Of a stretch of DNA of 64,000 bases, positions 11,797-64,000 are shown in pieces. Under the pieces are notes generated by a model that was given only the letters and a program-made list of their open reading frames with translations, did no database searches and was not told the origin of the DNA. The DNA lies in IMG/VR virus record IMGVR_UViG_3300027969_003137, positions 23,519-87,518 of that record, one strand, 5' to 3'. This stretch comes from a virus. The first letter of the stretch is position 1, and every line of letters starts with the position of its first letter. The position numbers and the translations under genes are program-made.

Positions 11797-12246
11797 ATGG
11801 CAAAATTTTTCTCAACAAAACATTACGGACACAACATCGGTCTGTCGGCGGTATTCCGTCAACCCAACGCAGATCACAGTCACTGTCACTTGCTACATGG
11901 CTACAGTCTAGCGTTTACGTTCACATTTGGCTGTGACTCATTAGACAACAAAAACTGGGCAGTAGACTTTGGCGGGCTCAAACCACTCAAGGCATGGCTG
12001 GAAGATAACTTCGATCATAAATTAGCTTTGGATAAATCAGATCCGCACTTGGCCAAGTTTCAAGAACTAGAAGCATTGGATCTAGCAGAGATTAGAATAT
12101 TTGATGGTGTAGGTGCAGAGAAGTTTGCCGAACATGCCTTTAACTTTGCTGATCAATTAATTCGAGAAAAGACCAACAATCGTTGCTATTGTGTTCGAGT
12201 TGAATGTGCCGAGCACGGTGCTAACTCCGCAATATACGAAGCCTAA
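11797..12246 (+). CDS. queD: 6-pyruvoyl-tetrahydropterin synthase / QueD-like protein
   Basis: This 149-residue protein belongs to the PTPS/QueD family, whose bacterial members make 6-carboxy-tetrahydropterin, the second step of 7-deazaguanine (queuosine) synthesis. Family blocks are visible: FSTKHYGH near the N-terminus, SHCHLLHGYS (catalytic-type Cys30, His34), VDFGGLK, FDHKLALD and ECAEHGANSAIYE. The HGH usually completing the zinc site reads HGY here, so the third zinc ligand is replaced (Tyr36). AAGGAG lies 8 nt before the ATG. The 99-nt gap upstream holds a weak AGCGG/CCGCT inverted repeat and a TATATA, but no clear promoter. Confidence 0.8.
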   Translation: MAKFFSTKHYGHNIGLSAVFRQPNADHSHCHLLHGYSLAFTFTFGCDSLDNKNWAVDFGGLKPLKAWLEDNFDHKLALDKSDPHLAKFQELEALDLAEIRIFDGVGAEKFAEHAFNFADQLIREKTNNRCYCVRVECAEHGANSAIYEA

Positions 12247-40058: not shown

Positions 40059-40678
40059 TGACCCTGATAGGATGGCTGTTCGGTATTATTCCTGATAGTC
40101 TTTTTATTTGGATTACCTATATTCTGTTCGGAATAGGTGTTGTGTTATACTCGGCTAGCAAGTTGGTTCCTTGGATTCCCATGATGGGCCAATACAAACT
40201 TCCGGCAGAGCTATTTGGTATTGTATTTCTAGTTATAGGTTCCTATATGTTTGGTAGCTATGGAACTGAAATGGTGTGGCGCGAACGTGTAGCAGAACTA
40301 GAAGCAAAAGTTAAGGTTGCCGAAGAAAAAAGTCAACAGGTCAACACAGTTATCGAAACTAAAATAGTTACAAAAGTCAAAGTCATTAAGGAAAATGTAT
40401 ATGTTAACAGAGAAATCATCAAAGAAGTTGCGGGCAAGCAGTTGGATGCTCAGTGTACTTTGCCTCGGTCTACTGTCAGCTTGCACGACAGCGCCAGTCG
40501 TAATGAAGTTCCCGAGCGTGCCGCCGCAACTGATGGAACCCCCAGCGGAGTTGAAGCCAGTAGGCTCCTCGACAGAGTCGTTGAAAACTACGGGGCCTGC
40601 CACGAAAACGCAGAAAAATTAAGGGCGTGGCAAGAATGGTACAGGGAGCAGAAGAAAATCTTCGAAAGTGTTAAATAG
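40058..40678 (+). CDS. inner-membrane spanin (Rz-like)
   Basis: The 206-residue protein has two N-terminal membrane segments (about residues 12-32 and 48-68), a long coiled-coil (VAELEAKVKVAEEKSQQVNT) reaching into the periplasm, and a charged C-terminal domain. A second reading frame inside it encodes a lipoprotein (40401-40622), the classic nested Rz/Rz1 layout. Together they fuse inner and outer membranes in the last lysis step. An unusual feature is the two-segment N-terminus; lambda Rz has one. Confidence 0.85.
   Translation: MTLIGWLFGIIPDSLFIWITYILFGIGVVLYSASKLVPWIPMMGQYKLPAELFGIVFLVIGSYMFGSYGTEMVWRERVAELEAKVKVAEEKSQQVNTVIETKIVTKVKVIKENVYVNREIIKEVAGKQLDAQCTLPRSTVSLHDSASRNEVPERAAATDGTPSGVEASRLLDRVVENYGACHENAEKLRAWQEWYREQKKIFESVK
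40401..40622 (+). CDS. outer-membrane spanin lipoprotein (Rz1-like), nested in the i-spanin gene
   Basis: This 73-residue ORF lies wholly inside the i-spanin gene in another frame. It has a basic N-terminus, a hydrophobic core and a lipobox LLSAC with Cys28 as the lipidated residue, followed by a short proline-rich mature part (VPPQLMEPPAELKPV). The ATG at 40401 is preferred over 40395 because AAGGA lies 8 nt upstream of it. Together with the i-spanin it completes lysis. Confidence 0.88.
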   Translation: MLTEKSSKKLRASSWMLSVLCLGLLSACTTAPVVMKFPSVPPQLMEPPAELKPVGSSTESLKTTGPATKTQKN

Positions 40679-40707
40679 TAGTACATAATCCAAAAGGAGC
40701 GAAAACC

Positions 40708-41085
40708 ATGGAATTGGAACAAATCAAAGAAAAGATGAGTGCTGGCGAAGCCAAGGGCGCACTGATCGAAAAGGTAACATTTGCTGTGTTACCCATCATG
40801 TTTGCCTGTGTGGTGTACTTGATGAATGCGCTGAGTCATGTTAATACACAGTTGACCATTCTTGAAAGCAAGATGCAGTTGGTGGTGACATCAGACAACA
40901 AACAAGCACCAAACATGGGTGCTGAACTGGCTCGTGAAAAACTACGCCAAGACTTCATGCAGGCCAACACAGAAGCACTAGCAAGAAGCGGTGCCAACAA
41001 AGCAGTGCTGGACACATTGGTATGGCGTGTGCAAGAGTTAGAAAAGCACAAAGAGAAACAAACCAGCAATGTTGGGAAGAAGTAA
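40708..41085 (+). CDS. single-pass membrane protein with coiled coil
   Basis: The 125-residue protein has one membrane segment (about residues 24-42, VTFAVLPIMFACVVYLMNAL) and a long C-terminal helix that could form a coiled coil. AAGGAG precedes the ATG. It is in the lysis block between the spanins and DUF4337, so a role in lysis timing or an antiholin-like role is possible but not shown. Confidence 0.6.
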   Translation: MELEQIKEKMSAGEAKGALIEKVTFAVLPIMFACVVYLMNALSHVNTQLTILESKMQLVVTSDNKQAPNMGAELAREKLRQDFMQANTEALARSGANKAVLDTLVWRVQELEKHKEKQTSNVGKK

Positions 41086-41087
41086 TC

Positions 41088-41651
41088 ATGTCCTTGATTG
41101 ATTCAGTATTAAACCTAGTAACCAAACAACCCAAAGATCTCAACGCTCCTAAGCCTCCAGTTGGATCACGTAGCGAACGTGAAGCAAAATTAAAAGACAA
41201 AGCAGGTATGGTTATTAGCATATTTGCATTGTTACTAGCAGTTAACAGTTGGTACGGTGGTAAACTATCTAGCACAGTATTAAACAATACACTAGGTGCT
41301 AACAACACATGGGCACAATACCAAGCTAAAGCAGGTCGTGGTGTAAGCTATGAAATTGCTGCAAAAACTACAGCTGATACAAAACTACGTGCAGAATTCC
41401 AAGCTGAAAAAGAGCGCATGGACAGTGACAAGAAAGAGCTTGCTGCTAAGGCAAGAGAAATGGAAGCAGTTCGTGAAGAAGCTAAGAAGTCTAGTCCCTG
41501 GATTGCATATGCTAATACGGCATATCAGTTGGCCATTGTTGTTCTATCAGCAAGCATTTTAGCCGTTAGTATGGGAATGTTTTGGGGTAGCTTTGTAGTA
41601 GCCGGTTTTGGTATACTGCTAAGTCTAAACGGCTTATACCTTTGGTTTTAA
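41088..41651 (+). CDS. DUF4337-family membrane protein
   Basis: The 187-residue protein from the ATG at 41088 follows the DUF4337 layout: a cytoplasmic start, one membrane segment (about 37-55), a long helical loop with a coiled-coil part, and two C-terminal membrane segments. Function is unknown for the family. The gap to the previous gene is 2 nt, and it ends 2 nt before the lipase start. Confidence 0.7.
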   Translation: MSLIDSVLNLVTKQPKDLNAPKPPVGSRSEREAKLKDKAGMVISIFALLLAVNSWYGGKLSSTVLNNTLGANNTWAQYQAKAGRGVSYEIAAKTTADTKLRAEFQAEKERMDSDKKELAAKAREMEAVREEAKKSSPWIAYANTAYQLAIVVLSASILAVSMGMFWGSFVVAGFGILLSLNGLYLWF

Positions 41652-41653
41652 AA

Positions 41654-42376
41654 ATGAAAACACAACTACTATTAGAGTTTGCCAACATAGCGCAAACTAC
41701 CTACGACAATCCTAAAGACTCTAAAGCTAAGTTTAAAGCACTGGGCTATACCATTGTTCAATTCTTTGACATCGATGGCGCACAGGCATACCTGTTAACT
41801 AATGGCACAATAACAGTATTGTCCTTTAGAGGTACCGAAGTGACACAGAAGTCAGATGTATTGGCAGACTTAAAAGCCGGTAAGAATATTGAAGCCTGTG
41901 GTGGCAAGGTACACGTTGGCTTCAAAGGTGAGATAAACAAACTATGGCCCAGTATCTCTAAAGCGTTAACAGACAATCCAGGTAATATATATGTAACTGG
42001 ACACAGTCTTGGTGCTGCCATGGCAACTATTGCTGCTAGTCGTATGCAGGATCGTGTAACGGCATTGGTAACATTTGGTTCACCGAGAGTGGGCAATAAA
42101 GAGTTTGTTGACAGTGTGTTTGTTGACCATTATAGAGTACAGAACAACTGCGATGATGTGACCAAAGTTCCTTTTATGTTGATGGGATTTACACACCACG
42201 GAACACACAAGTATATGAACTTCAATGGTGAGTTTAGAGACTTGACTCCTTGGCAACAGGTAAAAGACATGGTCCGTAGCAGATTGCGAGCCAGAGCCAA
42301 GGGTCAAAAGTATATTGGCGTTTTTGATCACATGATGGCAAACTATATTTCCAAGTTAGAGAAGTTAGGAATGTAA
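41654..42376 (+). CDS. class 3 lipase / phospholipase-like hydrolase
   Basis: This 240-residue alpha/beta-hydrolase starts at the ATG at 41654; a TTG four codons upstream is in frame. The nucleophile elbow is GHSLGAAM with Ser118, the oxyanion motif is SFRGTE (57-62), and candidates for the remaining triad are Asp in NNCDDVTKVP and His in GVFDHMMANY. There is no signal peptide. Being between DUF4337 and the holin, it may attack host membrane lipids at lysis. Such a lipase is not part of the standard T4 lysis set. Confidence 0.8.
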   Translation: MKTQLLLEFANIAQTTYDNPKDSKAKFKALGYTIVQFFDIDGAQAYLLTNGTITVLSFRGTEVTQKSDVLADLKAGKNIEACGGKVHVGFKGEINKLWPSISKALTDNPGNIYVTGHSLGAAMATIAASRMQDRVTALVTFGSPRVGNKEFVDSVFVDHYRVQNNCDDVTKVPFMLMGFTHHGTHKYMNFNGEFRDLTPWQQVKDMVRSRLRARAKGQKYIGVFDHMMANYISKLEKLGM

Positions 42377-42396
42377 AAATTAAATAGGAGCGAAAA

Positions 42397-42930
42397 ATGA
42401 GCGAAGCAGTAAAAAGCGCAAGCGAACAAAAGAAAGAAGATTGGATGAACTCAAAATGGCGTCCAATGATGGGTTGGATGTATATGGTTGTCTGTATGAT
42501 GGACATGGTTATATTTCCAATCTTATGGAGTCTATTACAAACAATGACTCATAGTCCTATTACACAATGGAATCCACTAACGCTACAAGGTGCTGGATTA
42601 TTCCACATTGCAATGGGTGCAGTTTTAGGTATTGCGGCATTTGGTCGTACACAAGAAAAACTAGGAGGAGCAAACAATGGCGGAATACAAACACCAGCAA
42701 CAGGATTTGCGAGCGGGCCTTCAACATTTGGCCAACCGCAATCAGGAGGCTTCGGCAACTCCAGCGGTTTTAATTCACCAGCACCAAACACAAGTTTTGC
42801 GCCAGCACCAAGTTGGGGCACAACCCCAGTGGCAGCATCCGGCGGATTCGGCGCACCAGCAACAGGTCAAGTAGTAGCAGGGTTTGGCGGCAAGCCGGCA
42901 CCCATGCAACCAGAGCAACCACAAATTTAA
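42397..42930 (+). CDS. holin (3TM gene-transfer-agent type)
   Basis: The 177-residue protein has a short charged N-terminus, a first hydrophobic segment (MGWMYMVVCMMDMVIFPILW, about 25-44) and a second (LFHIAMGAVLGIAAFG). This matches the holin family seen in T4-like aquatic phages and gene-transfer agents. The C-terminal 90 residues are Gly/Pro/Ser/Phe-rich and low in complexity, probably cytoplasmic. It makes the inner-membrane holes that let the endolysin out. AGGAG lies 6 nt before the ATG. Confidence 0.8.
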   Translation: MSEAVKSASEQKKEDWMNSKWRPMMGWMYMVVCMMDMVIFPILWSLLQTMTHSPITQWNPLTLQGAGLFHIAMGAVLGIAAFGRTQEKLGGANNGGIQTPATGFASGPSTFGQPQSGGFGNSSGFNSPAPNTSFAPAPSWGTTPVAASGGFGAPATGQVVAGFGGKPAPMQPEQPQI

Positions 42931-42940
42931 AGGAACTATT

Positions 42941-43177
42941 ATGAAAAAGTTTTTAATTGCATTAAGCATTATTATTTGGAGTTTTGTAGGATATCAAGTA
43001 TCAGCATATGCCGAAGATGATGCTCCCAAGACTAGAAAAGTCTGTGTAGACGTTCAAGGTAAAGACGGTAAACCCGTTATTGATCCAAAAACTAAGGCAC
43101 CAAAACAAGACTGCAAAGAAGTTAAAGCACACAAAAAACACGAAGGCACCAAGCCCGAGGATGTTAAGAAAAAATAA
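42941..43177 (+). CDS. exported lysine-rich small protein
   Basis: The 78-residue protein starts at the ATG at 42941 after AAAGGA. A signal peptide of about 25 residues (KKFLIALSIIIWSFVGYQVS) is followed by a basic segment with two cysteines and a Lys-rich end. It likely acts in the periplasm late in infection. The upstream frame to 42884 overlaps the holin and is not used. It is followed by a strong terminator. Confidence 0.65.
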   Translation: MKKFLIALSIIIWSFVGYQVSAYAEDDAPKTRKVCVDVQGKDGKPVIDPKTKAPKQDCKEVKAHKKHEGTKPEDVKKK

Positions 43178-43204
43178 TAGCAATCTAGTTTAGGTATTAA
43201 ATAT

Positions 43205-43230
43205 AAGGCTGCTTGACGCAGCCTTACTTT
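43205..43230 (+). terminator. hairpin terminator-like element holding a -35 in its loop
   Basis: AAGGCTGC (43205-43212) and GCAGCCTT (43218-43225) form a perfect 8-bp stem with loop TTGAC, followed by ACTTTT. It should stop transcription from the lysis operon. The loop is the -35 of the promoter at 43213-43241. Confidence 0.8.
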
Positions 43231-43241
43231 TCGTATATAAT
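43213..43241 (+). promoter_or_regulatory. sigma70 promoter TTGACG-17-TATAAT, 6 nt before dnaJ
   Basis: The spacer is 17 nt and the -10 is consensus. The -10 ends 6 nt before the ATG at 43248, so the predicted transcript starts at the start codon. There is no Shine-Dalgarno. Confidence 0.85.
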
Positions 43242-43247
43242 ATAAAC

Positions 43248-44105
43248 ATGAACTACTATTCAACTCTTGGTTTACAAAGAAACGCCTCTGAAGACGATAT
43301 CAAAAAAGCATATCGAAAAATGGCAATGAAACATCACCCCGATCGTGGGGGTGATGAAAAAACATTTAAACAGGTTTCCGAAGCCTACGAAATACTCAGC
43401 GACCCCCAGAAAAAACAAATGGTAGATATGGGTGTTGATCCCAAGACTCAACAGGCTGGTGGAGGCCGACATCAACAGGGACCATTTGAATTCCACTTTA
43501 ACAGTGGCAATTTTGAAGATGTCTTTAGCAACTTTGGATTTGGGGGTGGCGGTCCGTTTGGATTTGGTGGACGCCAGCCTCAAAGAAATAAAACGATCAA
43601 CATCAATGTGGATCTATCACTAGAAGATGTACTTAACGGCAAAGAACTAGAGGCCGAACTTGCCGTACCTAGTGGCAAGAAGAAGATTATTAACATCAGT
43701 ATTCCGGCAGGTATCGAAGGCGGCCAGCAGATCAGATACCAGGGTATGGGCGATAATGCAATCCCAGGTATACCACCCGGCGATCTAATTGTTAACATAC
43801 GAGTTGCTCCTCATCCTATCTTTAGAAGAGACGGGGATTCTTTACTTGTAGAAAAAGATATATCAGTATGGGATGCCTTGTTGGGATGTAATTTAACTTT
43901 ACAAACACTGGACGGTAAGAATTTAAATATCACTATCCCGGCCGGAACACAGCCAGAGACTGTGCTGAGCTGTAGGAACGAAGGCGTGCCAAATATGCGC
44001 AACAGATATCGAGGCAACTTGCTACTTAAAATTAAAGTGGTCGTTCCCAGGAATCTAACTGTAACTCAGATCACGACAATAGAGAATCTAAAGAATGGAA
44101 TTTAA
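43248..44105 (+). CDS. dnaJ: DnaJ/CbpA-type co-chaperone
   Basis: The 285-residue protein has an N-terminal J domain (residues 1-65) with the HPD motif in [10 protein letters not shown] that stimulates DnaK ATPase, a Gly/Phe-rich linker, and C-terminal substrate-binding domains. The zinc-finger domain of DnaJ is absent, as in CbpA. It probably works with host DnaK. The mRNA is predicted to be leaderless. It overlaps the deformylase gene by 11 nt and is the first gene of a proteostasis operon. Confidence 0.92.
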
Positions 44106-54258: not shown

Positions 54259-55389
54259 TTGACTCAATCTAATTATTGTGCGGCAATTTATAAGGGACTG
54301 TATGTTTCTGCCGAATCTAATAACCAAGCCAAGATAAGCGCCTGTTGTGTTAACCAAACAGGACCAGCAACATCTGTAATCGATTTTCATAAAGATGTAT
54401 ATCTAACCAATCAACGTGAAGAGTTCAACAAAGGCAATAGACCTAGTAATTGTGACTTCTGTTGGCGCAAAGAAGATGCAGGATTGTCTAGTCGTAGAGA
54501 AAGAAGTATTATTAAACCGTCGGAAGATCCCTATGAAGTTGAATTGTTAACAATGCACTATAATGTTGCTCCGTTATGCAATGCCAAATGTATTACCTGT
54601 GGAAGTCAGTGGAGTAGTGCTTGGGCTGCAGAGGACGAGAAGTTTAATACTGTAGGCGTTGACTTTCGCAGTTTTAATCAAATACGTAAATCTGACCCAG
54701 AATTTAATGTGGACTTTAGCAAGCTAACACAGATTTACTTCAACGGGGGCGAGCCGTTCCTAAGCACAGATGTCAATAGGATCTTAACCAAAGTTAAAGA
54801 ACAACAGGGCTCGTTAGACAAATTGAGCCTAGTGGTCAATACTAATTGTAGCATCATGCCTACTAAGAAAGATGTAGCTCTTTGGAACAAATGTAAGTCT
54901 ATATCTCTAATCTGTAGTGTTGAAGCAGTAGGTGCGCAGTTTGAATATATACGCTATCCATTAAGTTGGGATGAAGTATCTCACAATGTAGATAACTTTG
55001 GCTCACTATTTGATAAACAGCTAGTAATTAATATATCCCCTAATCTAGGAGTACATAATGCTCTAGAGTTTGACAATCTAGTTAATTGGTTCAATGGCCT
55101 TGCACAGGATAATACTACCTATATACTAAATCCAGAACTAACTGTAGGAACGTTATCATTTGACACAGTATCTGCTGATGTTAAAGCGGCCATGCTAGAA
55201 ATTATACCCACAGGACAGCAGTTTGATAAACTCAGACTATTTGTTCAAACGAGTACAAATGGTAATAACTCCAGATGGATTAACACACTTAATAATATAG
55301 ACTATAGACGTGGTCTAAACTGGGCTGAAGTGTTTCCAGAACTATCTAGACTAATACAACAGAATTCAACAGTTGACAATATTAAATAA
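54259..55389 (+). CDS. radical-SAM-like (twitch domain) protein
   Basis: The 376-residue protein has a C-x3-C-x2-C cluster (LCNAKCITCGSQW, about residues 110-122), the [4Fe-4S] motif of radical SAM enzymes. IYFNGGEPF follows as the GGE motif that contacts SAM, and an N-terminal cysteine group (CDFCWRKE) is also present. The reaction is unknown. The start is TTG at 54259, the only start codon in the frame before the conserved part; an ATAAATT element overlaps it. It may depend on the Fe-S genes of this phage. Confidence 0.7.
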   Translation: MTQSNYCAAIYKGLYVSAESNNQAKISACCVNQTGPATSVIDFHKDVYLTNQREEFNKGNRPSNCDFCWRKEDAGLSSRRERSIIKPSEDPYEVELLTMHYNVAPLCNAKCITCGSQWSSAWAAEDEKFNTVGVDFRSFNQIRKSDPEFNVDFSKLTQIYFNGGEPFLSTDVNRILTKVKEQQGSLDKLSLVVNTNCSIMPTKKDVALWNKCKSISLICSVEAVGAQFEYIRYPLSWDEVSHNVDNFGSLFDKQLVINISPNLGVHNALEFDNLVNWFNGLAQDNTTYILNPELTVGTLSFDTVSADVKAAMLEIIPTGQQFDKLRLFVQTSTNGNNSRWINTLNNIDYRRGLNWAEVFPELSRLIQQNSTVDNIK

Positions 55390-55718: not shown

Positions 55719-55778
55719 GTGGCCACAAACCGCACATTGGTATTTGCAAGCCCTAAATTGCATAGGAGAAAAATTTGA
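55719..55778 (+). CDS. possible 19-residue leader peptide of the polymerase gene
   Basis: A GTG-started frame with AAGG upstream ends in a TGA that overlaps the TTG start of the polymerase gene (TTGA). Such an arrangement would couple polymerase translation to the leader. It contains the hairpin described at 55745-55768. It is short and may be chance. Confidence 0.3.
   Translation: MATNRTLVFASPKLHRRKI
55745..55768 (+). promoter_or_regulatory. candidate gp43 translational operator hairpin
   Basis: TGCAA (55745-55749) and TTGCA (55758-55762) form a 5-bp stem with the 8-nt loop GCCCTAAA, one base before the AGGAG ribosome site (55764-55768). T4 DNA polymerase represses its own mRNA by binding a hairpin of 5 bp and an 8-nt loop just before its ribosome site. 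The loop sequence differs from T4 (AAUAACUC). Confidence 0.5.
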
Positions 55779-58444
55779 GTTATGTAGACGCTTTCTATAA
55801 TAGAGAGCAGGATATGATTCACGTCGTCGAACGTGATGACAAAGGTAATAGACATTACAAAGAATATCCTGCTAGACATATATTTTATTACCCAGATGCC
55901 AAGGGTAAATTCACAAGTATTTTTGGACAACCTCTTTCACGAGTAAGTTCTAAAAATGTCAAAGAACATCGCAAAGAACTTGCAATTCATTCAAACAAAA
56001 AACTGTTTGAAAGTGACATCAACCCGATCTATCGTTGTCTAGAAGACAACTATCTTAATCAAGACGCACCAAAATTAAACATAGCGTTCTTTGACATTGA
56101 GGTCGACTTTGACCCAGAACGTGGCTATGCATCACCTGAAGATGCATTCATGCCTATCACCGCTATTGCTGTTTATCTGCAATGGATGCAGACCATGGTG
56201 TGTTTGGCAATTCCTCCTAAAACATTATCAATGGAAGAAGCACAAAAACAAGTTGAAGAATTCCCCAATACCATGCTGTTTGACAACGAAGCAGACATGT
56301 TAGATACGTTCTTGGATCTAATTCAAGATGCAGACGTACTAAGTGGTTGGAACTCAGAAGGCTTCGATATTCCGTATACTGTTAACCGTGTGACCAAAGT
56401 TCTTAGCAAAGAAGACACACGTAGATTCTGTTTGTGGAATCAGTTTCCCAAGAAGCGTGAGTACGAAAAATACGGTAAAGCTGCGGTCACTTATGACCTT
56501 ATTGGTCGTGTACACTTAGACAGTCTTGAACTGTATCGCAAGTACACATATGAAGAACGACACACATATCGATTGGATGCCATCGGCGAGATGGAAATTG
56601 GTGAAAACAAGACGGTGTACGAAGGTACGCTCGATCAACTGTACAACAATGACTTCCGTAGGTTTATTGAATACAACAGACAAGACTGTATGCTGTTGGA
56701 AAAACTAGACAAGAAACTAAAGTTTCTAGATCTTGCTAATACACTGGCACATGAATGTACTGTGTTGTTGCAGACCACTATGGGTGCTGTGGCAGTCACT
56801 GAACAGGCCATTATCAACGAAGCTCACAAGCGTGGATTCATTGTGCCTAACAGAGTGTCTCGAGAAGAAGGTTTCAGCAATCAAGCTGCCGGTGCCTATG
56901 TTGCTTACCCCAAGAAAGGCATTCACGAGTGGATTGGTTCTTTAGATATTAACTCGTTGTATCCTTCAGCGATTCGTGCCTTGAACATGGGTCCAGAAAC
57001 TATTGTTGGACAATTGCGTCAAGATGGTACCAAAGACTTTATTGCAGCAGAAATTGGTAAAGGAAAGTCATTCGCCTCAGCATGGGAAGGTATCTTTGGT
57101 TCATTAGAATATGCAGCCGTACTGGAAAAAAATGTTGGACGCGAAATCATCATTGACTGGGAAGATGGCGGAGTCGATACTCTGAGTGCTGCTCAGGCCT
57201 ATGATCTAATCTTTGAATCAAATCAACCTTGGATGCTTTCAGCTAACGGTACTATCTTCACTTATGAAAAAGAAGGGATCATCCCTGGATTGTTAAAACG
57301 TTGGTATGCTGAACGTAAAGACATGCAGGCCAAATTAAAAGAATGTATAAAGGCGGGAAATAAAATTGAAGAAGAATACTGGGACAAACGTCAGCTTGTT
57401 AAAAAGATTAACCTCAACAGTCTCTATGGTGCTATTCTTAATCCTGGTTGTCGTTTCTTTGATAATCGTATTGGTCAGTCCACCACACTCACTGGCCGTG
57501 CCATTGCCCGGCATATGGCTGGTAAGGTAAACGAAATTATCACAGGCGAAAACAATCATACAGGTAAAGCCATTATCTATGGTGATACAGACTCGTGTTA
57601 TTTCTCAGCGTACACTACACTAAGAAAAGAAATTGATCAAGGAGCTCTTCCTTGGACTAAAGAATCAGTTGTCGATCTATATGATACCATTGGGGAAGAA
57701 GTAAACTCAACCTTTCCCAAGTTCATGCAAGATGCGTTCCATTGTCCTAAGACTCGGGGTGAAGTTATCAAAGCAGGACGGGAGATTGTTGCCAGTCGCG
57801 GCTTGTTTATCACAAAGAAACGATATGCTGTATTGTATTACGATAAAGAAGGCAAACGTGCAGACATAGACGGCAAGCCCGGCAAGATCAAGGCCATGGG
57901 ATTAGATCTCAAACGTAGTGATACTCCTGTGGTTATTCAAGACTTTTTAAGTGAAGTATTGACCAAAGTTCTAAATAACGGTACCAAAGAAGATGTACTA
58001 GAATATATTACTGCGTTCCGTACTGAGTTTAAAGTTAGACCCGGTTGGGAAAAAGGATCACCTAAACGTGCTAATAACATTTCAGAGTACCGCGACAAAG
58101 AAAAGAAAGCAGGTAAGACTAACATGCCCGGACACGTTCGAGCAAGTCTTAACTGGAACACTTTGAAGCGTATGATGGATGACAAATATTCAATGGCTAT
58201 TACAGACGGTGCCAAGGTGATCGTTTGTAAGGTCAAAGATAATCCAATGGGGTATACATCAGTTGCCTACCCTGTAGATGAACTTAGACTACCTCAATGG
58301 TTTAAGGACTTACCTTTTAACGATGCCGAAATGGAAAATGCAGTCATCGATGAAAAGTTAGAAAACTTGATTGGTGTTTTGGAATGGGACATCAGTTCAA
58401 CTCGCAGTGATAATACATTTGCAAAATTGTTTGACTTTGAGTAA
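55775..58444 (+). CDS. 43: family B DNA polymerase (T4 gp43 homolog)
   Basis: The 889-residue replicative polymerase starts with TTG 6 nt after AGGAG. The 3'-5' exonuclease is intact: FFDIEVD (Asp107, Glu109), SGWNSEGFDIPY and YNRQDCMLLEKL. Polymerase motif A is DINSLYPS (391-398), motif B KINLNSLYG, and motif C YGDTDS (602-607). The length is close to T4 (898). The C-terminus has a hydrophobic/acidic end (AKLFDFE) like the clamp-binding tail of T4-type polymerases. It is followed directly by the sliding clamp gene. Confidence 0.97.
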   Translation: MSYVDAFYNREQDMIHVVERDDKGNRHYKEYPARHIFYYPDAKGKFTSIFGQPLSRVSSKNVKEHRKELAIHSNKKLFESDINPIYRCLEDNYLNQDAPKLNIAFFDIEVDFDPERGYASPEDAFMPITAIAVYLQWMQTMVCLAIPPKTLSMEEAQKQVEEFPNTMLFDNEADMLDTFLDLIQDADVLSGWNSEGFDIPYTVNRVTKVLSKEDTRRFCLWNQFPKKREYEKYGKAAVTYDLIGRVHLDSLELYRKYTYEERHTYRLDAIGEMEIGENKTVYEGTLDQLYNNDFRRFIEYNRQDCMLLEKLDKKLKFLDLANTLAHECTVLLQTTMGAVAVTEQAIINEAHKRGFIVPNRVSREEGFSNQAAGAYVAYPKKGIHEWIGSLDINSLYPSAIRALNMGPETIVGQLRQDGTKDFIAAEIGKGKSFASAWEGIFGSLEYAAVLEKNVGREIIIDWEDGGVDTLSAAQAYDLIFESNQPWMLSANGTIFTYEKEGIIPGLLKRWYAERKDMQAKLKECIKAGNKIEEEYWDKRQLVKKINLNSLYGAILNPGCRFFDNRIGQSTTLTGRAIARHMAGKVNEIITGENNHTGKAIIYGDTDSCYFSAYTTLRKEIDQGALPWTKESVVDLYDTIGEEVNSTFPKFMQDAFHCPKTRGEVIKAGREIVASRGLFITKKRYAVLYYDKEGKRADIDGKPGKIKAMGLDLKRSDTPVVIQDFLSEVLTKVLNNGTKEDVLEYITAFRTEFKVRPGWEKGSPKRANNISEYRDKEKKAGKTNMPGHVRASLNWNTLKRMMDDKYSMAITDGAKVIVCKVKDNPMGYTSVAYPVDELRLPQWFKDLPFNDAEMENAVIDEKLENLIGVLEWDISSTRSDNTFAKLFDFE

Positions 58445-58503: not shown

Positions 58504-59241
58504 ATGAAAGATATTTTACAAGACATCGTGTCACACACACAAAACCTAGGCTTCTTAACCACAGTTAAAGTCACAGGCACAGAAAAAGGCACAACAGTTA
58601 ATTCAATGGCTGATGATCGTTCAGTTATTATGGAAGCAGAAACTGCTGCTCCTTACTCAGACATGATTGGCGTGTTTGGTATGCCACAACTTAACAAATT
58701 AAAATATTTGTTAGACGGTTCTGAGTATAAGGAAAATGCTAAAATTAGTATCACTACCGCAGAACGCAATGGCGAGACTGTTCCAACCGGCTTACACTTT
58801 GAAAACAAAGACGGCGACTTCAAGAACGACTATCGTTTCATGAACACAGAAATTATCAACGAAAAGATGAAGACTGTTAAGTTCCGTGGCGTCAAGTGGG
58901 ATGTAGAAATTGAGCCTACAGTCAGTGCTGTACAGCGTTTCAACTTCCAAGCAGGTGCTAACAACGAGCATCCAACGTTCTTGGCCAAGACAGATGGCGG
59001 CAATCTAAAGTTCATCTTTGGTGACGCAAGCACACACGGTGGTGAGTTTATCTTTGCACAAAACGTAGCAGGCAAACTCGATCGTGGCTGGACTTGGCCA
59101 GTTATGCCAATCTTGAGCATTCTTAAGATTGCAGATGTTAACAACACTAAGATGTCTTTGAGTAACGAAGGTGCTATTCAGATTACTCTAGATAGCGGAC
59201 TTGCCACTTACAAATATATCATTCCAGCACAAGCGGCCTAA
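58504..59241 (+). CDS. 45: sliding clamp (T4 gp45 homolog)
   Basis: The 245-residue protein is slightly longer than T4 gp45 (228) and shows the two-domain clamp pattern: MIGVFGMPQLNKLKYLLDG in the first half and TWPVMPILSILKIADVNN with FIFGDASTHG in the second. It forms a ring that tethers the polymerase to DNA and in T4 also activates late transcription. It has its own promoter. The start follows AGGAGAACTTTCA. Confidence 0.93.
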   Translation: MKDILQDIVSHTQNLGFLTTVKVTGTEKGTTVNSMADDRSVIMEAETAAPYSDMIGVFGMPQLNKLKYLLDGSEYKENAKISITTAERNGETVPTGLHFENKDGDFKNDYRFMNTEIINEKMKTVKFRGVKWDVEIEPTVSAVQRFNFQAGANNEHPTFLAKTDGGNLKFIFGDASTHGGEFIFAQNVAGKLDRGWTWPVMPILSILKIADVNNTKMSLSNEGAIQITLDSGLATYKYIIPAQAA

Positions 59242-59242
59242 T

Positions 59243-60880
59243 ATGAAAGCACCGGTTAATTTAACTCCGCTGCAAAAGGACTATGCGGTATACCTGCCAG
59301 CTATTAGTTCTTTTTACAGTACCTATGTTGCTAAACAGCGACTAGAAGAATTCGTACCCACTGATCGAATTCCTGCAGGATTTGATCGTGGCATTGAAGG
59401 TATGAACTTTTTAAATGCTGATCAAGGATACTTTACCTATAAGTATGCTTTGTATTCCGCAGGTCATGCACAACTTGATCTCGAAAAATCAATGACTCAA
59501 GAATCAATGATACAGGATCGTGATCGTCCTAACACAATGATCTTGGGCGACTCTGGTGGGTATCAGATTGGTAAAGGTGTTCTTAAGTTTGATTGGTTAA
59601 ACTTTGAAGGCGCAGAGGCCAATAAGACTCGTAAAAAGATTCTTGAATGGTTAGAGTTGACTGCTGATTGGTCAATGATGCTTGACGTTCCTACTTGGGC
59701 TTGTGATCACATTCACAGTCCTAAGACTGGATTAAAAACATTTGAAGACTGTCTAGACAAGACTCGCTTTAACAATGACTACTTCTTGCAGAATCGCCTA
59801 GGACAAACTAAATGGCTTAACGTATTGCAAGGTGGAGACTGGGATACTGCGGAAAAATGGTATCGTGGTGTTGTGGAGTTCAGCGATCCTAAAGGCAAGT
59901 ATGCCGGTAAGGAAGCTGAAGGTTGGGCATTTGGTGGTGCCAATATGTGCAAGATGGATATCACCCTCAAGCGTTTGATGACAATGCGTGATGAAGGAAT
60001 GCTTACTGGCAAGAACTGGATTCACTTCTTGGGTACTGCACAGTTAGACTGGTCGTGTTTCTTAACACAGATCCAACGTCAACTGCGTAAGCACATTAAT
60101 CCAGAACTCACAATCAGTTTCGACTGTGCAAGTCCGTTTATTGCCACTGCTCACGGACTGGTATACACAAACGCACAGCATACCAACAAGCGTTGGAGTG
60201 TTATTATGGACAAGGCTCCTGATAACAAAGGTCTGTCAGGACGACACGACATTCCTTTTCCGTTTGAAAGCGAGTTTGCAAGTCGACTAACAATGGGCGA
60301 CATTGCATATTATGACTACGGTGTTCGTAAGACAGATGCAGAACTTGGCAATGTTAAGTTTAATCATTTAAACACAGAACATTATCACAAAGTTCCAAGA
60401 CTTAACAAACTGGGTAAAATTCCAAACAAAACATCGTGGGATAGTTTCAGTTATGCATTAATGATGGGACATAATGTTGAATGTCATATTAAAGCAGTAC
60501 AACGTGCTCAGCAATTAATGGACATTGAATGTGCTAAATTCAAACCAGACTGGCGTATGAAAGGTATTGAAGGTAAGAAAGAAATCGAATACAGCGATTG
60601 GGTTCCTAACAAGATTTTATACTTTGGTACATTTGTTGAAGAATTGTTTAATACTAAAACAAAAGACGAAGCATTTGCTATGATCGATTCAGCAAAACAA
60701 TTCTTGAAGAGTCTTGAAGGTGCTCGCTTACAAGGCGGCCCTGCTGATAACGAATTTAATAAGTTATTCACAGTTGAAGATTCAGCCAATGTAAGACTTG
60801 GTCCAGACGGGTTACCTTTATTTGACCAACAAGATGATGATAAACTTCGTGGTTTAGAAACAGAAATTATCGAGGAGTAA
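59243..60880 (+). CDS. tRNA-guanine-transglycosylase-like protein (candidate DpdA-type base exchanger)
   Basis: The 545-residue protein starts at the ATG at 59243; an in-frame start at 59201 overlaps the clamp. Its motifs align in order with TGT enzymes at nearly the same positions: LGDSGGYQIG (Asp103, cf. Asp102 in Zymomonas TGT), MMLDVPT (Asp148, cf. 156), VLQGGDW (Gln196, cf. 203), WAFGGANM (231-232), HFLGTA, and SFDCASP (Asp294, cf. nucleophile 280). The TGT zinc site CxCxxC is not evident. DpdA relatives swap guanine in DNA for 7-deazaguanine; whether this one acts on DNA or tRNA is open. The C-terminal 230 residues are extra. Confidence 0.78.
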   Translation: MKAPVNLTPLQKDYAVYLPAISSFYSTYVAKQRLEEFVPTDRIPAGFDRGIEGMNFLNADQGYFTYKYALYSAGHAQLDLEKSMTQESMIQDRDRPNTMILGDSGGYQIGKGVLKFDWLNFEGAEANKTRKKILEWLELTADWSMMLDVPTWACDHIHSPKTGLKTFEDCLDKTRFNNDYFLQNRLGQTKWLNVLQGGDWDTAEKWYRGVVEFSDPKGKYAGKEAEGWAFGGANMCKMDITLKRLMTMRDEGMLTGKNWIHFLGTAQLDWSCFLTQIQRQLRKHINPELTISFDCASPFIATAHGLVYTNAQHTNKRWSVIMDKAPDNKGLSGRHDIPFPFESEFASRLTMGDIAYYDYGVRKTDAELGNVKFNHLNTEHYHKVPRLNKLGKIPNKTSWDSFSYALMMGHNVECHIKAVQRAQQLMDIECAKFKPDWRMKGIEGKKEIEYSDWVPNKILYFGTFVEELFNTKTKDEAFAMIDSAKQFLKSLEGARLQGGPADNEFNKLFTVEDSANVRLGPDGLPLFDQQDDDKLRGLETEIIEE

Positions 60881-63578: not shown

Positions 63579-63824
63579 ATGGCTAAGAATTATCGGGATT
63601 ATTCCTATTTTGAAAACCGCCCCGACGTTGTTCGGATCTTTGATGACCTAGATGCATATCTAGATTGGTGCAGATTAGAACTGCAACCATTTAATCCTGC
63701 AGATCTCTACAAGAGAGATTCAACAATTTATCAGAATTATCTGTCAAGCAGACGTCCACGCAGACAGTATCAAGGCAACAAACCGTTCAATAGAACACGC
63801 AATGAGCAGAATTTTTCTCGTTGA
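63579..63824 (+). CDS. conserved small basic protein
   Basis: The 81-residue protein starts at the ATG at 63579, 8 nt after AGAGGA. RPDVVRIFDDLDAYLDWCRL is the ordered helix; the C-terminus is very basic (SSRRPRRQYQGNKPFNRTR). Nucleic-acid binding is likely. Overlaps the next gene by 22 nt. Confidence 0.62.
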   Translation: MAKNYRDYSYFENRPDVVRIFDDLDAYLDWCRLELQPFNPADLYKRDSTIYQNYLSSRRPRRQYQGNKPFNRTRNEQNFSR

Positions 63825-64000
63825 TCTAGAAGCAGTTGAGACAAGGTACACAGGTCAATGGAAGACCCATGTGCCTGCACTCTTACGAAAGGCAGGACAT
63901 CATGTCAACATTATATCAGGTCCTACGGACATTCCTAGTGCTACCACTCCTGGGGCATTTCTCAACTTTGGCGGCACTAATATCTACAAGGCTAGTCAAG
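63803..64000 (+). CDS. conserved phage protein, 5' part only (partial)
   Basis: An open frame from the ATG at 63803 runs to the window edge (66 codons). It begins RIFLVDLEAVETRYTGQWK and continues with HHVNIISGPTDIPSATTPG and FLNFGGTNIYKA. The pattern recalls a glycosyltransferase-like N-terminal half known in aquatic T4-like phages. The 3' end lies outside the window. Confidence 0.6.

Follow-up and report, generated by a model that had tools for sequence, protein, structure and literature searches.

A putative, highly diverged DpdA-like guanine transglycosylase encoded behind the replication genes of a large tailed phage

The window analyzed here is a stretch of 64,000 nucleotides (bases 23,519 to 87,518 of the 87.5 kb virus record IMGVR_UViG_3300027969_003137, from a large tailed phage; the record ends with the window). 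It contains a gene whose 545-aa product, P0001, is very probably a highly diverged DpdA, an enzyme that would replace guanine in the phage's own DNA with a 7-deazaguanine. P0001 conserves the catalytic residues and the fold class of tRNA-guanine transglycosylase (TGT), its family is homologous to DpdA2, and its gene occurs in the context of que genes. Such an insertion had been raised as a possibility in an initial annotation of this DNA, and the TGT-like fold and the 7-deazaguanine genes support it; we infer that the substrate is DNA.

At least 586 stretches encoding relatives of P0001 were found in one scan of viral contigs; the 80 that were kept are about 79-95% identical to P0001. A relative is also present in 13 isolate phage records, where it is always annotated as a hypothetical protein. 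Eleven of these belong to Pseudomonas phages (PA5oct, Paride and kin, Arenbergviridae; 43% identity) and the other two are Sinorhizobium phage Phosso and Vibrio phage 2.275.O (29%). Viral-contig scans started from the Paride and Vibrio proteins added no relatives. A fragment 53% identical to the dpdA-like gene was seen in a contig (L192) of an Erysipelotrichaceae UBA6182 metagenome-assembled genome, probably a phage contig binned into it. The reading proposed here offers a likely function for a family of hypothetical proteins abundant in environmental jumbo phages. DpdA enzymes are already known, and this family would add a diverged form. A member is carried by Paride, an available Pseudomonas phage isolate that kills dormant cells, so that the proposal is open to immediate testing.

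Active-site motifs and predicted fold

59243-60880, plus strand: dpdA-like guanine transglycosylase gene of the TGT superfamily, 545 aa (P0001), assigned from motifs, fold and profile match

The reading frame is open throughout its 545 codons. Its translation contains the motifs DSGGYQ at residue 103, LDVP at 147 (D148), LQGG at 195 (Q196-G197-G198), GGAN at 231, HFLG at 261 (to G264) and SFDCASP at 292 (D294). The TGT residues D103, D148, Q196-G198, G231-232 and D294 all lie where the initial annotation had placed them. Across 16 diverse relatives, a set that includes isolate phages at 31-44% identity, D103-SGG-Q108, D148, P150, G197, G227, G232, H261, L263-G264 and D294 are invariant. Q196 is almost so, the exception being Paride with a Ser. 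The zinc-binding motif of TGT, CxCxxC(...H), is absent from P0001, whose cysteines are found only at positions 154, 170, 236, 272, 295, 414 and 430. This agrees with the earlier remark that no zinc site was evident, and the protein is also, as remarked then, larger than TGT (545 vs 375 aa).

An AlphaFold model of P0001 built with 44 sequences reached a predicted local distance difference test score (pLDDT) of 81 and a predicted template modelling score (pTM) of 0.81. In this model the motifs sit at or just past the ends of beta-strands (99-103, 143-145, 190-195, 227-230, 259-262 and 290-293), in the style of a TIM-barrel active site. A Foldseek comparison of the model with the PDB gave TGT structures as all of the 17 top matches (E 3.6e-7 to 5.6e-5), the first non-TGT match being an unrelated barrel (E 4e-4). 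The structure prediction proposed as a check in the initial annotation thus came out TGT-like. Among viral models, the top structural matches included a 596-aa protein (as long as the relative from Vibrio 2.275.O), the TGT of Achromobacter phage Motura and R9TGF0 of Vibrio phage nt-1, which is DpdA2.

Family-library searches of P0001 (Pfam, PHROGs, NCBIfam and PADLOC) gave no match, nor did single and profile searches against PDB sequences. In a profile-profile comparison by hhalign the DpdA2 family of nt-1 matched the P0001 family with an E of 1e-7, and control profiles (FolE, QueE, the glycosyltransferase described below, the clamp and a reversed DpdA2 alignment) gave E values of 0.14-0.89. 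The alignment pairs D103, D148 and D294 of P0001 with D76, D112 and D266 of DpdA2, and the QG and LG motifs are aligned too. When 198 phage open reading frames (ORFs) of at least 220 aa were scanned, the Motura TGT ranked first outside the family (E 7e-6) and nt-1 DpdA2 next. In a direct alignment with E. coli TGT, LQGG is paired with IIQGS, WAFGG with YAVGG, FLGTA with MGVGK and FDCASP with FDCVMP, and the nucleophile D264 of the E. coli enzyme aligns with D294. HMMER searches of Campylobacter phage CP220, nt-1 and Enterobacteria phage 9g with the profile of the family detected no relative, so that the evidence for remote kinship comes from hhalign and structure; CP220 had no homologue by hhalign either. 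The fold, the profile matches and the absent zinc motif therefore place the P0001 family in the TGT superfamily, nearer to DpdA2 than to Tgt, and by sequence outside DpdA1 and DpdA2. The distinct subfamily that had been suggested initially is borne out for the two subfamilies compared, as the family stands apart from DpdA1 (9g) and is only remotely related to DpdA2 (nt-1).

Replication and 7-deazaguanine synthesis genes

55775-58444, plus strand: phage DNA polymerase (PHROG 262, E 1e-199)
58504-59241, plus strand: probable sliding clamp, homologous to the annotated Phosso clamp, Paride_0113 and NVP2275O_465
11797-12246, plus strand: QueD-like 6-carboxytetrahydropterin synthase family protein, 149 aa (PHROG 2389, E 3.6e-40; PF01242, E 1.3e-13)
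L099 7517-8092 (record of the window's virus), minus strand: short QueC-like protein, 191 aa, with an SGGLDS PP-loop and a C-terminal Cys cluster
L099 8076-9008 and 13253-14185 (left flank, same virus record), minus strand: two 310-aa PP-loop ATPase-like proteins

Among relatives with enough flanking sequence, called eligible here, the polymerase lies upstream of the dpdA-like gene in 96 of 98 and the clamp candidate in 101 of 103. The product of 58504-59241 matches the Phosso protein annotated as a sliding clamp (E 4e-36), whereas a profile search against the PDB matched no clamp; it is probably a sliding clamp by homology to that annotated protein. The dpdA-like gene begins one base past the stop of the clamp candidate, so its description as directly behind the sliding clamp is reasonable, with the clamp label drawn from annotation. 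Since the gene sits behind the polymerase and the clamp, its position suggests that the enzyme works on freshly replicated DNA. Just before the polymerase, 54259-55389 encodes a twitch-domain radical SAM protein (NF033640, E 4e-57). It was rejected as a QueE because it belongs to NF033640 and is beside the gene in 0 of 80 loci.

QueD catalyzes the second step of 7-deazaguanine synthesis. The QueD-like gene at 11797, already pointed out in the initial annotation, was confirmed by its PHROG and Pfam matches, and those large relatives and isolates that were tested have QueD as well. FolE is located downstream of the dpdA-like gene in 39 of 48 eligible loci (median 3.7 kb) and in 14 of 15 related records. 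QueE lies further downstream, in 10 of 11 eligible loci; by record it was found in 17 of 20, although two of the 17 show no more than a short match. Its assignment is based on NCBIfam QueE models at E values of about 1e-11, under the curated cut-offs, and the candidate is 30% identical to a Paride protein annotated as QueE-like. In Vibrio 2.275.O the relative stands beside QueF, a COG1738 transporter, QueC, a GAT-like protein and FolE, and the gene order in Motura is QueD-QueC-AsnB-TGT-QueE-FolE. The search for further deazaguanine genes proposed initially thus turned up QueD in the window, a QueC-like protein in the same record and, among relatives, FolE and QueE close to the dpdA-like gene. 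Two QueD-like genes were observed close to FolE at 40495-43260 of Paride (L223 4496-7261); one of the two may be a paralogue that has a different function.

The distribution of QueC is patchy. PF06508 (QueC) was unmatched in the complete genomes of Paride, Phosso and Acidovorax phage ACP17 and in seven of the nine large relatives searched, and FolE and QueD are present in the QueC-negative genomes tested. Because of this patchiness, the pathway in many members seems to end at 7-carboxy-7-deazaguanine (CDG) or to depend on a host QueC. As a QueC could not be recognised in most members, which do encode FolE, QueD and QueE, the reading of P0001 as a DpdA admits a refinement, which we hold tentatively, whereby the inserted base would be CDG or a product of it and not preQ0. 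The nucleoside dCDG was reportedly found in phage DNA by Cui et al. in 2023. However, the host may provide QueC and preQ0, Vibrio 2.275.O and Motura encode a full-length QueC, and the record of the window itself encodes the short QueC-like protein with its PP-loop and Cys cluster. A search of 15 records, from relatives and for comparison, found this short protein in only two, both of them relatives. The two 310-aa proteins were not counted as QueC because they match it at the PP-loop only and have no C-terminal Cys cluster. A TctA-family tripartite tricarboxylate transporter gene, full length, lies at L099 17845-19308 of the same record (E 4e-85); it may be an auxiliary metabolic gene or else point to a mixed assembly.

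In the mechanism that we propose, the phage, or phage and host together, would make a 7-deazaguanine from GTP through FolE, QueD and QueE, and some members would use a QueC-like step as well. The enzyme would cut the N-glycosidic bond of guanine in replicated DNA, with D294 as the covalent nucleophile and D103 as the acid/base, and would put the 7-deazaguanine into the vacated position. The modified genome would in this way be protected from host restriction.

The fold and the catalytic residues are those of TGT and would also suit an enzyme that places preQ0, preQ1 or queuine in the tRNA of the host or the phage and so adjusts translation; some depositors annotated similar phage proteins as queuine tRNA-ribosyltransferase (PMC9025141). 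We consider this improbable, as P0001 is missing the zinc-binding CxCxxC, the profile nearest to its own is that of DpdA2, which comes from a phage whose DNA contains 7-deazaguanines (PMC6884629), and its gene is grouped with the polymerase and the clamp. Furthermore, no phage tRNA with a GUN anticodon was found in the scanned parts of the 87.5 kb record, and no QueA, QueG or QueH homologues were found in the viruses analyzed in PMC6884629.

Several observations weigh against P0001 being a DpdA. Its structural match to TGT is partial (TM-score 0.39 on the query and 0.55 on the target), and its 13% identity allows for more than one substrate. The pairwise score with E. coli TGT is weak, E 0.002 compared with 0.11-0.39 for three unrelated E. 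coli proteins. FolE and QueE are absent from the record of the window, as would be expected from its stopping 3.1 kb past the dpdA-like gene. The literature yielded no nucleoside analysis for this or any related phage, and the Paride paper mentions none. Finally, since Q196 is a Ser in Paride and G231 is replaced by Ala or Ser in some members, substrate binding may differ where these residues vary. Such lineage-dependent changes in the pocket would also fit a protein with the TGT fold whose catalysis is changed or lost and which serves a structural or regulatory purpose by binding 7-deazaguanine or DNA. Yet even very diverged lineages keep the three aspartates, the nucleophile among them, without exception, and they retain the que context, which makes this alternative improbable.

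A linked GT4-like glycosyltransferase

63802-64000, plus strand: first 66 codons of a GT4-like (GT-B fold) glycosyltransferase (GT), cut by the end of the record and intact in relatives
L001 9617-10678: glycosyltransferase family locus
L102 6697-7779: glycosyltransferase family locus
L225 4986-6014: glycosyltransferase family locus
L226 4941-6101: glycosyltransferase family locus
L227 4501-5592: glycosyltransferase family locus
L228 6866-7969: glycosyltransferase family locus

A glycosyltransferase gene is found downstream of the dpdA-like gene in 55 of 58 eligible relatives. The intact protein has about 360 aa, and the best PDB structure matches of its model (pLDDT 83) are GT4/GT5 enzymes (E 6e-9 and up). 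The Paride homologue is 42% identical and its gene overlaps the dpdA-like gene by 1 bp. A UDP-glucose/GDP-mannose dehydrogenase-like gene (L102 7776-8558) overlaps the 3' end of the glycosyltransferase gene, and such a dehydrogenase-like gene is present in 12 of 49 eligible related loci.

By tblastn, homologues were identified in 19 phage records that group into five lineages. Inspection of the gene neighbourhood in one record per lineage (Paride, ACP17, Xanthomonas phage X1, Phosso and Xanthomonas phage PhiXhv-15) showed the glycosyltransferase surrounded by 7-deazaguanine genes in all five. The order is QueD-FolE-x-DpdA2-GT-x-QueE in ACP17, with a 4 bp overlap, FolE-x-x-x-GT-DpdA2-x-QueE in X1 and polymerase-clamp-x-x-GT-x-FolE-x-x-x-QueE in Phosso, and PhiXhv-15 (L228 4735-8821) shows a GAT/QueC fusion-PIG-L deacetylase-GT-oxidoreductase row. 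The glycosyltransferase adjoins DpdA2 in two lineages, ACP17 and X1. Because a single glycosyltransferase family accompanies two DpdA subfamilies that BLAST cannot relate, we infer that it acts in the 7-deazaguanine pathway, the simplest role being glycosylation of the inserted base. It is about as likely as not that the DNA of these phages contains glycosylated 7-deazaguanine, the GT4-like enzyme adding the sugar after insertion by DpdA. This base would perhaps be derived from CDG, since QueC is often missing. Text searches of the open-access literature gave no report of glycosylated 7-deazaguanine in DNA. If the glycosyltransferase does act on the inserted base, it would represent a new class of DNA hypermodification, with a bearing on how such phages evade restriction.

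Comparison with known systems

Of the systems compared, DpdA2 of Vibrio phage nt-1 (YP_008125322) and KVP40-like phages shares with the P0001 family the motifs DSGG, FDE/LDV-P, QG, HxLGxG and ISYDS/ISFDC, a C-terminal extension, FolE/QueD/QueE surroundings, an occurrence in large myoviruses and the lack of a visible TGT zinc motif. However, their aligned identity is 16-20%, DE in DpdA2 corresponds to DVP in the P0001 family, and the latter is about 80 aa longer. BLAST gave no significant match between nt-1 DpdA2 and P0001 (E 0.27), in line with the HMMER result, so P0001 does not fall within the DpdA2 subfamily. The Motura protein annotated as tRNA guanine transglycosylase (YP_009903615) resembles P0001 in its DSGGFQ...LDVP core and is accompanied by a complete que cluster, but it is only about 20% identical, lies in another replication-gene context and is found with a complete QueC and an AsnB-like amidotransferase.

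DpdA1 of phage 9g (AHN84519) has the DSG motif, adjoins the clamp and polymerase and is followed by folE and queD; the DNA of 9g is modified (PMC6884629). DpdA1 differs in being 317 aa long, and its hhalign match to the P0001 family was not significant (E 0.29), which places P0001 outside this subfamily too. Bacterial Tgt (E. coli; 5egr of Z. mobilis) shares the TIM barrel, and by alignment and motif order its D89, D143, Q187, G213-214 and D264 correspond to D103, D148, Q196, G231-232 and D294 of P0001. Unlike Tgt, P0001 is without the zinc site and has an extra C-terminal helical region at about 400-490. Two further subfamilies, DpdA3 and DpdA4, were reportedly described by Cui et al. in 2023.

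Concerning the glycosyltransferase, it shows the same GT-B fold as the GT4 enzymes BshA, MshA and GlgM but only 10-16% identity to them, and it forms a phage-specific family tied to 7-deazaguanine genes. The PhiXhv-15 row resembles a pair for N-acetylglucosamine (GlcNAc) transfer and deacetylation (BshA/BshB) joined to 7-deazaguanine chemistry. If the acceptor of the linked glycosyltransferase is indeed the inserted base, the product would be a purine counterpart of the glucosylated hydroxymethylcytosine of phage T4.
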